Assembly: GCA_025057155.1 (NCBI GenBank)
Contig: JANWYD010000013.1
Coordinates: 62,001-126,000 of the forward strand
DNA from: Chloroflexaceae bacterium
Lineage (GTDB): Bacteria > Chloroflexota > Chloroflexia > Chloroflexales > Chloroflexaceae
Reading direction: 5' to 3'
DNA length: 64,000 nt
A program made the translations under genes and the position numbers. Shown here piece by piece: positions 53,304-58,423 of the stretch (positions are counted from its first letter, which is position 1; each line of letters begins with the position of its first letter). The notes beneath the pieces are model-generated. The model worked only from the letters and a program-made list of their open reading frames with translations, did not search any database and was not told where the DNA came from.

Positions 53304-54635
53304 CTACCGCTCCCCCGCAGCAGCCGGTGTCGCCGCCTCGCGACCCTCCAGGAAGAAGACCCCCTCGGTGTCGTCGTAGGCAAAAAGTTCGGCGTAGCGC
53401 CCCCACTCGCTGGCGATGTCCAGTTGCCGTTCGGCCTCTTCGGGCGGGAAGTCGCGCTCCAGGGCGGTAAGCAGCACCTCCCAGCGCAGCGCCTGGTCGC
53501 CCGCGGCCTGGAGCATGCGCAGCATCCAGCGGAAGAAGGGCAGGCGCCGCAGGCGCGTGGCGAAGATCTCTTTGCGCGCCAGGATGCTGGCCTCGGCGAA
53601 GGCCTCACCCAGCGGCGTGAGGATGAGCGCCCCGCCCTCGACCCGCGCGAAGCCCAGCAATTCGGCTGCTTCCACCAGCGGCAGCAGATGGTCGAGATCC
53701 AGGCCCAGATCCTCGCGCAACTGGGCGATTTCGTCGCGCTCGTAGGGGGTGGCGTTGGTGTGCTCGAGCAGGCCGGCCAGCGCCGTCACCGTGGCCATAG
53801 GCAGCGCGCGGGTCTTGCCGGCCTGTCCCGGCTCGGTGCCGAACTCGACCTCTTCCGGCTGGGTCTGGCCCATCAGCAGGGCATAGACGCGGTTGACCAG
53901 GGCGACAAAGGCGTCGGATTTGCGGTCGCGGGGATGGGGCATATTCACCGTCACCTCGGCCACGATACGGCCCGGCCCCTTGTCCATCACCACGATCCGG
54001 TCGGCCATAAAGACCGCTTCTTCGATGTTGTGGCTGACCATCAGTACTGCGCGGATCTGCAACTGGCCGCCGGTCCACAGTTCCAGCACCTCGCCGCGCA
54101 GGGTCTCGGCGCTCAACACATCGAGGGCGCTGAACGGCTCGTCGAGACAGAGCAGTTCCGGGTCCACGGCGAGGGCGCGAGCGATGCCGACTTTCTGGCG
54201 CATGCCGCCGGACAGCTCGCGCGGATAGGCTTGCTCGAAGCCGTCGAGACCGACCAGATCGATCAATTCGATGGCGCGGGCGCGGGCCGGTTCGGGGGCC
54301 ACGCCGCGCGCCTGCAGGGCCACAGCCACGTTTTCTTCGACCGTCAGCCAGGGGAACAGGGCGAAGGTCTGGAAGACGATGGTAGCTCTGGGGTTAACCC
54401 CGCGGAGGGGCTGGCCACGGTAGAGAACCGTACCCTCGCTTGGCTCGTTCAAGCCGGTGATGATCCGCAGCAGGGTGCTCTTGCCACAGCCCGAGGGACC
54501 GAGGAGGGCCACGAACTCGCCTTCGCGGATGCTCAGGTTAATGTTTTCCACAGCGGTAAAGCGTTTGTCGCCGCGCCCGTAGCGCTGGGCCACGCCACGC
54601 ACTTCAACCAGCGCCGGGTTTCGAGAGGCGGTCAT
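53304..54635 (-). CDS. NitT/TauT-type ABC transporter ATPase with AAA-associated C-terminal domain
   Basis: A 443-residue ATPase. It has GPSGCGKSTLL (Walker A), PRELSGGMRQKVG (signature), LLCLDEPFSALD (Walker B) and VSHNIEEAV (H-loop). After about residue 270 comes a ~150-residue domain (PMATVTALAGLLEHTNATPYERDEIAQLREDLG onward) that matches the AAA-associated C-terminal domain found in nitrate/sulfonate-type ATPases. The gene begins 17 bases after the permease stop, with AAGGAG before ATG 54635. Substrate class (nitrate, taurine, or similar) is inferred only from family. Confidence 0.92.
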   Translation of the reverse strand: MTASRNPALVEVRGVAQRYGRGDKRFTAVENINLSIREGEFVALLGPSGCGKSTLLRIITGLNEPSEGTVLYRGQPLRGVNPRATIVFQTFALFPWLTVEENVAVALQARGVAPEPARARAIELIDLVGLDGFEQAYPRELSGGMRQKVGIARALAVDPELLCLDEPFSALDVLSAETLRGEVLELWTGGQLQIRAVLMVSHNIEEAVFMADRIVVMDKGPGRIVAEVTVNMPHPRDRKSDAFVALVNRVYALLMGQTQPEEVEFGTEPGQAGKTRALPMATVTALAGLLEHTNATPYERDEIAQLREDLGLDLDHLLPLVEAAELLGFARVEGGALILTPLGEAFAEASILARKEIFATRLRRLPFFRWMLRMLQAAGDQALRWEVLLTALERDFPPEEAERQLDIASEWGRYAELFAYDDTEGVFFLEGREAATPAAAGER

Positions 54636-54652: not shown

Positions 54653-56374
54653 TCAATCCATGCGATAGGTCGTCTCGGCCAGCCGGTAGAGTCGTCGCCA
54701 GACCAGGCGGTTGATGGCTACTACAGTCAGTACCATAGCCAGGGTGGCCGCCAGCAGGCCCGGGTAGTCGCCAGTGGCAGTGGCGGAGGTGATCTGCGAG
54801 CCCACCCCCAGGGTCGTGTAGGTCTCGCCGCCGAACACCACGTACTCGGCGACGATGCTGGCGTTCCAGGCGCCGCCGCTGGCGGTGATCATGCCGGTGA
54901 TCAGGTACGGAAAGAGGGCGGGCAGGATCAGGACGCGCCAGCGCATCCAGCCCGAGAGTTGCAGCAGGTCGCTGGTGTAGCGCAGATCCAGGGGCAGAGC
55001 GGCGGCGCCGGCGATGACGTTGAAAAGCAGGTACCACTGGGTACCGAGGAGCATCAGCAGCACCGCGGCCAGGTTCAGCCCGCCGGGAGCGGCGAGCAGA
55101 GCCAGCACCAGCACCGGGAAGAGGGCCGTGGCGGGGATCGAAGCGATAATCTGCACCAGCGGCTGCAACACCGCCGCTGCCCGTGGATGGGTGCCGATGT
55201 ACACGCCGACCGGCACCGTCCAGAGCAAGGCAATGATCAGGGCAGCCGACACGCGCAGCATGGTTGCGCCGACTCCCAGGACAATGCTGAGCCACTGGGC
55301 AGGCGGCACCTGGAGCAGCAGCCGCCCGCCCAGGAACGCGCCGCCCAGCGCCAGCGCCAGGACAACTGCGATGAGCAGCCAGGTGAGGAGCGAGCGTTTC
55401 GGGGCGGCGGGGTTGGCGGTGCTTACAGGCGCGGGATTGCGGCTCAGCGTGCGGTCGAGGGCGGCATTGACCGGCTCCCACAGGCGCCCGATCAGTTGCG
55501 GGAAGGCCGCCCGCTGCAGCAGTTCGTAGAACCACGAATAGGTCGGCTCATCGCTCTCCACCTGCTCGAGCTTGAAGCGGTCGGCCCAGGCCAGCAACGG
55601 CCGCCAGACCAGTTGGTCGAGCGCCACGATCACTACCACCAGGGTCAGCAGGCCCCAGCCAATGGCGGCGATGTCGCCGGCATCGGCAGCGGTTTGCAGA
55701 TAGGCCCCCAGGCCGGCCAGGCGAAAGTCGCGGTCGCCCAGGGTAAAGATCTCGGCGGCCATGAGGAAGAACCACCCGCCAGCCCAGCTCATCATACTGT
55801 TCCAGATCAGGCTCAGGGCGCCGAAGGGCAGTTCGGTGGTGGTAAAGCGGCGCCAGGGGGAAAAGCGAAAAATCGCGCTGGCTTCGCGCAGTTCGCCGGG
55901 CACGGTGGTGAGAGACTGGTACCAGGCAAAGGTCATGTTCCAGGCCTGGCTGGTGAAGATCAGCACAATCGCCGCAAGCTCCACAGCGACCCGTTCGGGC
56001 AGCACGGCGCTGAGGCTGAGCAGCACGACCGGAAGAAAGGAAAGAATGGGCACGCTCTGCAGCACATCGAGCAGCGGCAGCATCCAGCGTTCGGCCCGGG
56101 GATTGTACGCGGCAATGTAGCCGTAGGACAGCGTAAAGAGCAGCGAGAGGGTATAGGCCGCGGCCATGCGCCCCACCGAAAGCATCGCGTAGTAGGGCAG
56201 CGCAGTGGGCGACAGGCTGATCTCCGGGCCGCGCACCGCGGCGGGAGCGGTCCGCGCCAGCCACACTGCCAGGGCAAGCAGACTGGCGATGATCAGCAGG
56301 ATCGCGAGGTCAGCGCCCGTGATACGGGGTCGGGGAGATGGGATAGGAGTAAAAACCCTGCGAGTTGCAGCCAT
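54653..56374 (-). CDS. NitT/TauT-type ABC permease with two transport domains in tandem
   Basis: A 573-residue permease in which two binding-protein-dependent permease domains are fused. Both halves carry the EAA-type loop: GELREASAIFRFSPWRRFTTTELPFG in the first and the matching LDLRYTSDLLQLSGWMRWRVLILPALFPYLITG in the second. Each half has about six helices and a polar linker lies between (~280-330). Normally this family works as a homodimer of single-domain permeases. No periplasmic binding protein gene is adjacent. GGAG precedes ATG 56374. A candidate RNA with its own promoter and terminator lies upstream. Confidence 0.9.
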   Translation of the reverse strand: MAATRRVFTPIPSPRPRITGADLAILLIIASLLALAVWLARTAPAAVRGPEISLSPTALPYYAMLSVGRMAAAYTLSLLFTLSYGYIAAYNPRAERWMLPLLDVLQSVPILSFLPVVLLSLSAVLPERVAVELAAIVLIFTSQAWNMTFAWYQSLTTVPGELREASAIFRFSPWRRFTTTELPFGALSLIWNSMMSWAGGWFFLMAAEIFTLGDRDFRLAGLGAYLQTAADAGDIAAIGWGLLTLVVVIVALDQLVWRPLLAWADRFKLEQVESDEPTYSWFYELLQRAAFPQLIGRLWEPVNAALDRTLSRNPAPVSTANPAAPKRSLLTWLLIAVVLALALGGAFLGGRLLLQVPPAQWLSIVLGVGATMLRVSAALIIALLWTVPVGVYIGTHPRAAAVLQPLVQIIASIPATALFPVLVLALLAAPGGLNLAAVLLMLLGTQWYLLFNVIAGAAALPLDLRYTSDLLQLSGWMRWRVLILPALFPYLITGMITASGGAWNASIVAEYVVFGGETYTTLGVGSQITSATATGDYPGLLAATLAMVLTVVAINRLVWRRLYRLAETTYRMD

Positions 56375-56687
56375 GCCCTTCTCCAGAAATAGTGTGCTTG
56401 AGATAAGCGTGTTGAGGCGTCACTCCTCACCCTCCCCCTATTCGGGCCAGACCTGCAGCGCCGCGCGCACCTTGGCCCACCGTTGGGAAGCGATCAGGTG
56501 GCGAATGGTCTCTACACTGGTCGTTGGAACCGTGGTCATGTTCCGCTCCCTCTACGCCTGCGACTGTCCTGGCCATCGCCCGCAGCGGATGCGTCAGACA
56601 CGCGAGGCGCTGGCCGTCCTGACACCAACGCCTATTGCCCGGACTGCATGCCTACCGTCGCCAGGTCTCATCGGGACGCCATATTTT

Positions 56688-56722
56688 GCAATCCAAAATC
56701 CAAAATCTAAATTCCAAAATCG
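56688..56722 (-). repeat. GATTTTGGATTTTGGATT run, reverse orientation
   Basis: The reverse strand carries GGATTTT-unit runs as at 2891, 18716 and 32513. It lies between the candidate RNA terminator and the ABC permease start. Confidence 0.7.
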
Positions 56723-56768: not shown

Positions 56769-56797
56769 AAAAACCCGGTGGGCCAGGCCCCACCGGG
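56769..56797 (-). terminator. Intrinsic terminator, reverse strand
   Basis: CCCGGTGGG (56774-56782) and CCCACCGGG (56789-56797) pair around a 6-base loop; on the reverse strand the stem is followed by TTTTTG (56769-56773). Confidence 0.8.
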
Positions 56798-57059
56798 AAC
56801 AACAACCGTCTGGCGCTCAGGCGTTTCAGCCGGCGCGCATAAGACCGGTGGAACTGGCCACGATTGCGGGCGATCCGCTACGCCGTTGACGTGGATGACT
56901 GCCGTCCATTCCCAGGCCTTAGGAAATGCTGGACCCCCTGTGACTGCACGAGCAGGACAGAGTATTTTCCTGGGAGACGCGGGACCTGCCAGATCCTCCC
57001 AGGCGGCAAGGGGGTATCGGTCCGACGTTACGTAGAAGGGTTTCACAGGTGCTCGAACG
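56769..57059 (-). ncRNA. Candidate structured RNA, about 290 nt, unassigned
   Basis: A reverse-strand transcript would start near 57059 from a consensus promoter and end at an intrinsic terminator (56769-56797). The transcript folds locally: CCTGGGAG/CTCCCAGG with a 19-base loop and CATTTCC/GGGAATG around 8 bases. It contains no open frame with a ribosome site; the only long frame covers the promoter and terminator and so is not coding. I find no match by eye to tmRNA, RNase P, SRP RNA or common riboswitches. It could be a 6S-like or unknown RNA, or a leader of the ABC permease 395 bases downstream. Confidence 0.5.
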
Positions 57060-57065
57060 CGAGGA

Positions 57066-57094
57066 AGTATACTCGTAGACCTCAGGAGTGTCAA
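57066..57094 (-). promoter_or_regulatory. Consensus promoter for the candidate RNA
   Basis: Reverse strand: TTGACA (57094-57089), 17-base spacer, TATACT (57071-57066). It is the best -35/-10 pair seen in this window and stands apart from any gene start. Confidence 0.8.
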
Positions 57095-57267: not shown

Positions 57268-57663
57268 TCAAGCGCCTCCTTCACCGACACTGCGTACAAA
57301 GATCCGTTCGAGGGCCACGCGCGGATCGGTACAGAGACCGGTGTGAACCGGTGAAGGCTGAATCACGGTACTGCGGGGGGCGGTAAGCCAGCGGAAGCGC
57401 TCGTAGTGGGGCAAAGCGCCGATGGGACCGGCGGCAAGGCCCCCGGCGCAGATTATCGGAATGTGCGCCAGTTGCACCTCCAGCAGTTCCAGATCCAGGG
57501 TCGGATCGAGCGTGCGGAGGCGGGCCGGGTCAAGGCGCAGGCGCGCTTCGAGGAAGCCATGCTGCCGGCAGAGGAGCACCACGCCGACGTTAACGTATTC
57601 GCCGCGCTCGATGCGAGGCACCACGCGCATCAGGGCGTACTCAAAGACGCTGGTCGCGGGCAT
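57268..57663 (-). CDS. DUF3037 protein, partner of HipA-like kinase
   Basis: A 131-residue DUF3037 protein. Strand-rich with TSVFEYALMRVVPRIERGEYVNVGVVLLCRQHGFLEARL at the start, then PARLRTLDPTLDLELLEVQLAHI and GPIGALPHYERFRWLTAPRSTVIQPSPVHTGLCTDP, typical of the family. ATG 57663 has GAGGAGG 6 bases upstream and overlaps the kinase gene's end by 23 bases. DUF3037 proteins commonly sit beside HipA-like kinases; the function is unknown. Confidence 0.9.
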   Translation of the reverse strand: MPATSVFEYALMRVVPRIERGEYVNVGVVLLCRQHGFLEARLRLDPARLRTLDPTLDLELLEVQLAHIPIICAGGLAAGPIGALPHYERFRWLTAPRSTVIQPSPVHTGLCTDPRVALERIFVRSVGEGGA

Positions 57664-58423
57664 GGATTGCCTCCTCGACAAACAACCGCGGCGCGGACAC
57701 TCGCGTCAGCAGGTATTCCACATAGGCCGCCCGGTGCTCTTCCAGGCTCTCGAAGGGGCCGTCACCCGCCAGCCAGGCATCAGGCACCGCCGCTACCAGA
57801 CGCTCCACCAGGGCGGGGGTGATTCGAGGAGCCAGCGCGGCATCGGCGGCGCGCAGATCGCCCGCCACGGGAAGCAGCACGTGATTCTTGATCGCCGTGA
57901 AGCGACTCCTCGCCCGGTGGCGCCAGTCTTCCCAGGTATGGTGAACGATCAACGTCGCACCGTGATCTATCAAGTAGAGTTGCCGGTGCCAGAGGAGCAT
58001 ATTGGTATTCAGAGGCGTTCGATCCACATTGGTAACAAACGCATCGAACCAGACGATGCGCGCTGCCAGATCGGGCGCGACACTGGCGGCATTGAGCGCG
58101 TCGAAGGCCAGGGCGCCGGGCAGAAAATCCATTGCCAGGTTCAGCCCTCCACTGGCCCTGACGAGATCCTGGATCTCGCTATCGGGTTCGTTGTGTCCCA
58201 GGGTCGGATCGAGGTGCGCCAGAACGATTTCGGGCACCGGCAGGCCGAGGGCGCGGCCCAGCTCACCGGCGAGCAATTCGGCGATCAGGGCCTTGGGACC
58301 CTGGCCCGCGCCGCGAAACTTGAGCACATACAACCCGTCGTCGTCCGCTTCGACCAGGGCGGGCAACGAGCCGCCCTCACGCAGCGGCGTCACATAGCGG
58401 GTGGCGATGATGGTACGGAGCAT
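57641..58423 (-). CDS. HipA-like kinase (short form)
   Basis: A 260-residue kinase-like protein of the HipA_2 type. It lacks the N-terminal HipA subdomain of E. coli HipA. Visible motifs are SLPALVEADDDGLYVLKFRGAGQG (nucleotide-binding strands with Lys), IVWFDAFVTNVDRTPLNTNMLLW (catalytic Asp and N) and LYLIDHGATLIVHH (metal Asp). The gene overlaps the upstream uracil-DNA glycosylase by 34 bases and the downstream DUF3037 gene by 23. Substrate unknown; no HipB antitoxin is present, so a toxin role is not supported. Confidence 0.85.
   Translation of the reverse strand: MLRTIIATRYVTPLREGGSLPALVEADDDGLYVLKFRGAGQGPKALIAELLAGELGRALGLPVPEIVLAHLDPTLGHNEPDSEIQDLVRASGGLNLAMDFLPGALAFDALNAASVAPDLAARIVWFDAFVTNVDRTPLNTNMLLWHRQLYLIDHGATLIVHHTWEDWRHRARSRFTAIKNHVLLPVAGDLRAADAALAPRITPALVERLVAAVPDAWLAGDGPFESLEEHRAAYVEYLLTRVSAPRLFVEEAIHARDQRL

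Follow-up and report, generated by a model that had tools for sequence, protein, structure and literature searches.

A probable leader-peptide attenuator upstream of an mgtE-ABC transporter operon in a Chloroflexaceae bacterium

Sensing of Mg2+ through leader peptides is known in enterobacteria. The leader peptide of mgtA in E. coli and Salmonella is MgtL (PMC11282234, PMC3641672), and its EPDP motif leads to ribosome drop-off at low Mg2+ (PMC11282234). In the Salmonella mgtCBR leader, tandem attenuators contain two ORFs, mgtM and mgtP, which sense ATP and proline (PMC3641672). In Mycobacterium tuberculosis, a translational M-box (Mbox) with Rho-dependent termination is accompanied by uORF2/Rv1805A, whose peptide was called mycobacteria-specific and whose function was given as unknown (PMC12810186). 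Here we analyzed an element in a 64,000-nucleotide stretch of Chloroflexaceae DNA (the window), which we consider probably to be the 5' leader of an mgtE-ABC-transporter operon that acts as a leader-peptide attenuator through a short ORF (uORF).

The leader and its operon

The original prediction had described a free-standing consensus promoter and a terminator that enclose a non-coding transcript. Both signals were confirmed, and the features of the locus are as follows (G002 and G003 are further genomes of the same genus).

57066 to 57094, minus strand: sigma-70-type promoter, TTGACA-17-TATACT; hexamers and spacing also in G002 and G003
56947 to 57016, minus strand: part of the 5' untranslated leader, resembling a dispersed genus repeat and differing between species
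56769 to 56797, minus strand: intrinsic terminator, a 9-bp stem (56797-56774) followed by the T run TTTTTG
56438 to 56539, minus strand: mgtE stub, first 33 codons (MTTVPTTSVETIRHLIASQRWAKVRAALQVWPE*), the remainder of mgtE being deleted
54653 to 56374, minus strand: ABC transporter permease (double BPD_transp_1), second gene of the ancestral mgtE operon
53304 to 54635, minus strand: ABC transporter ATPase, third gene of the operon

The promoter (57094-57066) matches the consensus at 11 of 12 positions and is the sole site of this quality within 6 kb, a shuffled-sequence control giving a mean of 0.7 sites at ≥9/12 per 6 kb. In a DNA search that took in 60 relatives, the element was detected in three more members of the genus (G002, G003, and G004), in which the promoter and the 3' half are conserved and the middle is replaced by other sequence. 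TTGACA and TATACT are kept in G002 and G003 by alignment and in G004 by reading of the sequence, and a TTGACA-17-TATAGT promoter stands in front of the Chloroflexus mgtE leaders. The middle of the window leader (56947-57016) is 74-85% identical to a repeat present at many sites in the genus genomes. Directly upstream of the leader (57268-58423) lies a HipA_2-like kinase gene that overlaps a DUF3037 gene, and this pair is preceded by a UDG-superfamily gene.

Comparison with the relatives placed the element in an operon. In G002, an intact mgtE (Pfam MgtE, MgtE_N, and CBS; NCBIfam mgtE TIGR00400, E=9e-114) is located directly downstream of the element and is followed by the ABC permease as in the window; the gene on the 5' side reads like a short-chain dehydrogenase. 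In Chloroflexus (G012), the gap between mgtE and the permease is about 30 bases, which is operon-like. Because mgtE was cut to a 33-codon stub in the window genome (G000), the leader there now precedes the ABC permease-ATPase pair, and a search of the assembly for an orthologue of the lost mgtE gave none, the sole MgtE-like match being 31% identical. The gene is degenerate in G003 as well. A unit of uORF and terminator also precedes mgtE in Chloroflexus, Chloroploca, and Viridilinea, and no such unit was present in the 600 bases upstream of the second mgtE copy of the Viridilinea genomes (L139 and L140). An A+T-rich TTTTGGATTTTGGATTG repeat is located at approximately 56690-56718, between the terminator and the mgtE stub, and repeats like it occur close to the G004 element and, in Viridilinea, ahead of mgtE. 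The label "free-standing" thus proved wrong, and the proposal of a long leader for the ABC permease came close: in the relatives the element precedes mgtE and then that permease, which the loss of mgtE leaves as the first intact downstream gene in the window genome.

The dedicated promoter and the strong terminator would fit a free-standing, trans-acting sRNA whose 3' end is set by that terminator, and so would the location of the element and mgtE on different contigs in G004. Against it, mgtE, intact or eroded, stands downstream of the element in three of the four genus genomes, the uORF-terminator unit is followed by mgtE in the three other genera, and paralogous copies stand behind M-boxes. 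Moreover, the contig that carries mgtE in G004 extends just 172 bases beyond the 5' end of the gene and breaks off in sequence resembling the repeat that adjoins the element on the other G004 contig. We regard an sRNA as very improbable and ruled it out on this operon context.

The uORF and its candidate pairing partners

The claim that the transcript holds no credible reading frame was not upheld: a short ORF with a ribosome-binding site lies in the leader upstream of the terminator, as in a leader attenuator. The features concerned are as follows.

56917 to 56920, minus strand: Shine-Dalgarno (SD) sequence AAGG of the uORF, 7 nt before the ATG and within segment 1, which can pair with segment 2
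56826 to 56909, minus strand: uORF/leader peptide, 27 codons, MDGSHPRQRRSGSPAIVASSTGLMRAG, conserved in position, length, and frame
56845 to 56857, minus strand: segment 2, CCAGTTCCACCGG, candidate antiterminator half inside the uORF, with a duplex partner at 56796-56783
56783 to 56796, minus strand: segment 3, terminator 5' arm and loop, CCGGTGGGGCCTGG

The same order, namely SD, ATGGAC..., about 30 codons, stop, terminator, and mgtE, was found in Chloroflexus, Chloroploca, and Viridilinea. The uORF frame is open in all 16 copies first compared, most of which have stops in the other frames; the G004 uORF carries a six-base insertion that keeps the frame, and in 28 of 28 copies of a wider set, an AGT(AGT|CAT) motif stands at a varying distance from the ATG but in its frame. 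The window uORF ends 31 nt before the terminator, and the stop-to-terminator spacing is 22-40 nt in all lineages tested. For nine conservative representatives the product of the shuffle probabilities was 2e-10, a value that depends on the 22-40 nt range, which was chosen after inspection. At the level of amino acids, there was no third-position excess among the uORF codon positions (0.53/0.50/0.54) and pairwise tests were mostly non-significant, conservation being weak. Selection over the whole peptide was therefore dropped as a proposal, and selection on the peptide sequence itself is unsupported beyond the frame and the N-terminus. The window peptide, with MDGSHPRQRR at its N-terminus, has a single acidic residue (D2) and lacks the acidic/proline N-terminal motif of the MgtL type.

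These conservation data bear on the possibility that translation plays no part and that the element is a structured, non-coding RNA or a riboswitch with Mg2+ or some other compound as its direct ligand. The ORF would then be incidental to conserved nucleotides such as AUGGAC..GUCAU, a potential start-codon hairpin. Nucleotide conservation at the uORF start equals amino-acid conservation, with the flat third position noted above, and 26 of 51 copies have a GTCAT no more than 40 nt from the ATG, both as such an RNA would predict. However, distances shift by multiples of three without loss of the frame, the SD, or the position of the stop, and the folding and family searches also speak against it. 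The transcript had been said to fold locally, but the folding energy of its 291 nt was the same as that of shuffled sequence (z=-0.07), and unusual folding stability of the leader was ruled out. No Rfam family reached its gathering score at the element, and a search at E ≤ 10 gave just two chance-level matches; within the 64-kb window the gathering-score matches were tRNAs only. The covariance model of the M-box (RF00380) likewise found no match to the element at the gathering score or at E ≤ 10. Taken together, direct ligand sensing by the RNA appears unlikely. Two candidates were rejected in the course of these searches. One was the M-box, whose core is resembled by eye by GGTCCTATGC, close to the 3' end; this string is part of the SD-pairing segment within the uORF. 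For 6S RNA (RF00013) there was no match at the window locus, and 6S was located at other loci in G001, G002, and G003. The idea of a new RNA of Chloroflexota holds insofar as the element is conserved and undescribed, but the element is a uORF-bearing leader and not a non-coding RNA.

The late part of the uORF has two potential partners. In the window, the duplex of segments 2 and 3 has an energy of -21.9 kcal/mol (p=0.21 vs dinucleotide shuffles); the antiterminator of most genus mgtE copies, including this one, was no better than shuffles, in a test whose power is limited by the GC-rich background. Over 13 representatives, not all of them independent, the antiterminator duplex exceeded dinucleotide shuffles with a Fisher p=3e-7, and the SD duplex did so with p=3e-4, again with representatives that are not fully independent. 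In Chloroflexus, the partners possible for the uORF segment CCUCAUCGG are CCGGUGAGG, in the 5' arm and loop of the terminator, and alternatively the SD region. Roseiflexus and the ABC copy of Chloroflexus have UCUCGCCAG as the segment and CUGGCGAGA as its partner. Segment and partner thus change together between these lineages, and the complementarity across lineages is beyond chance. In the SD helix of the four genus copies, 23 of 24 cells (95.8%) are paired, five of the six pairs vary, and one double change is compensatory; column shuffles reached the score in 135 of 500 cases, four sequences being too few for a formal claim of covariation.

Whether the leader of the window genome still works is a separate matter. 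It may have decayed when mgtE was deleted and persist there by chance, as the reduction of mgtE to 33 codons in G000, its degeneration in G003, and a shift of the G000 uORF stop by three codons upstream would suggest. On the other side, the leader has kept every one of its parts (promoter, SD, uORF, potential antiterminator, and terminator), and the operon's ABC permease-ATPase pair still lies downstream of it. We think a loss of function rather unlikely; as judged from its sequence, the window leader could either still control the ABC pair or be a relic.

Association with M-boxes

In Viridilinea and Chloroploca, the mgtE orthologue has a genuine M-box upstream. In addition, a covariance model of the uORF-terminator unit detected second copies immediately behind M-boxes, among them one in the window genome (G000:C15:106006-106177, E=8e-19) before a paralogous ABC operon; the M-box of this genome is at that other locus on C15. 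The surrounding region (L215, G000:C15:101000-107500) forms a second Mg2+-type operon of M-box, uORF, 148-aa ORF, ABC permease, and ATPase, and the 148-aa ORF had no NCBIfam match. Chloroflexaceae and Roseiflexaceae have the M-box and a first terminator ahead of the uORF, which is followed by a second terminator and then the transporter genes.

A survey of Chloroflexota found M-boxes in 43 of 400 genomes, and many of these M-boxes are followed by an SD-preceded short ORF with peptides such as MDAGPSSS..., MDDDSHKQ..., and MDGDGSRQS.... Some M-boxes of the phylum directly precede Nramp-like or ABC-permease-like genes without such an ORF. Relatives of the window's ABC permease-ATPase pair stand behind M-boxes elsewhere; in L260 (G406), a permease resembling that of the window is directly behind the M-box with no uORF, an arrangement which suggests that this "nitrate/taurine-like" ABC family may belong to the Mg2+ regulon. 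Beyond Chloroflexota, M-boxes are followed by ORFs beginning MDGDPSPYG... in a Bacillota MAG, MDSDPGPRK... in a spirochaete, and MESDPGHRC... and MDDDPRSSK... in Actinomycetota. M-boxes of probable mycobacteria are followed by MSPSDSPY..., in one case with a PE-like protein downstream. In six such loci (L287, L289, and L309-L312) the peptides read MSxxDSP... with proline at residue 7, and by sequence they appear to match the published uORF2, which has proline at the same residue (PMC12810186).

We then compared ORFs picked mechanically (strong SD, 15-60 codons) behind M-boxes of several phyla with those of control stretches. Such an ORF was present in 40 of 71 M-box downstream regions, and about 4,070 control stretches gave 413 hits. 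At least two acidic residues at positions 2-6 were found in 17 of the 40 M-box ORFs vs 5.1% of the controls (p=3e-12), and residue 2 was acidic in 19 of 40 vs 8.7%; the p-values for acidic N-termini are optimistic because related genomes are not independent. Our literature search, which covered subscription journals thinly, returned no account of uORFs that follow the M-boxes of Chloroflexota. The M-box-plus-uORF arrangement is apparently widespread and, in the literature searched, undescribed outside mycobacteria.

A possible Mg2+ checkpoint and its relation to known systems

We folded the nascent leader with the ribosome footprint masked. In the window copy without a ribosome, the nascent terminator arm was paired with the uORF at 0.79; a masked ribosome lowered this value to 0.56-0.60 at codon 1 or 10, 0.08 at codon 6, 0.02 at codon 20, and 0.01 at the stop. 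A ribosome at codon 20 freed the arm in most copies, and one at the stop did so in several. G002, G003, and CfG034 deviate in that the antiterminator was kept or formed with the ribosome at the stop, and in full-length RNA folding the terminator mostly wins. In these models the masks favor OFF on complete translation and ON on translation failure, the decisive ribosome position varying by copy.

We propose that transcription from the sigma-70 promoter would yield a leader with the uORF and the intrinsic terminator, in which the late uORF segment could pair with the terminator 5' arm as antiterminator; the SD region of the uORF would be its alternative partner in the genus and Chloroflexus. If the uORF is translated to its end, ribosomes would cover the late segment, the terminator would form, and the operon would be OFF; if translation is blocked or aborted early, as expected at Mg2+ shortage, the antiterminator would form and the polymerase would read through (ON). 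We infer Mg2+ as the signal because of mgtE, the M-box association, and the parallel with MgtL. Translation of the uORF, this direction of control, and intrinsic ribosome destabilization as the trigger are likewise inferred, and destabilization by acidic residues would be weaker in the window copy than in the M-box-linked copies because it has a single acidic residue. Where the uORF-terminator unit follows an M-box, as it does in further operons of this genome and its relatives, the leader would provide two serial Mg2+ checkpoints, and in the window genome the loss of mgtE would have left the leader orphaned before the ABC genes. An apparent orphan non-coding RNA would thereby become readable as the relic of a transporter operon.

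A wider proposal is more tentative. M-boxes in Chloroflexota, Actinomycetota, Bacillota, and Spirochaetota might commonly precede an acidic, often proline-containing leader peptide that senses Mg2+ by intrinsic ribosome destabilization; MgtL and M. tuberculosis uORF2 would then be instances of one strategy and the window element an M-box-less, mgtE-less relative. If so, a single leader would test Mg2+ two times, first with the RNA aptamer and again through the stability of the ribosome. The recurrence of the M-box-plus-uORF arrangement in several phyla, the conserved uORF-terminator geometry in Chloroflexales, and the acidic N-termini suggest such a general two-step checkpoint, which also gives the mycobacterial peptide a testable role.

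Among described systems, MgtL shares with the window leader a short leader ORF before a Mg2+ transporter gene and, as expected here, termination upon full translation and expression upon its failure at low Mg2+; many M-box-linked peptides start acidic, often with proline, which recalls EPDP. In contrast to the MgtL system, in which termination is Rho-dependent, the terminator here is intrinsic, the window peptide has no EPDP, the transporter is MgtE plus ABC, and the RNA is unrelated. With M. tuberculosis uORF2 these elements have in common that the M-box of a Mg2+ operon is followed by a small, conserved uORF, and our Actinomycetota M-box scan itself recovered MSPxDSP... peptides; they differ in the intrinsic terminator downstream of the uORF, and the window mgtE copy is without an M-box. 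The M-box itself (ykoK leader, RF00380) precedes the mgtE orthologues of sister genera, upstream of the uORF-terminator unit; the window element is without the aptamer and represents the downstream partner only. Finally, as in mgtM/mgtP, there are two sensing elements per Mg2+ transport leader, at least one of them a short ORF, but in the paralogous copies described here these are an M-box and one uORF, with an intrinsic terminator after each.
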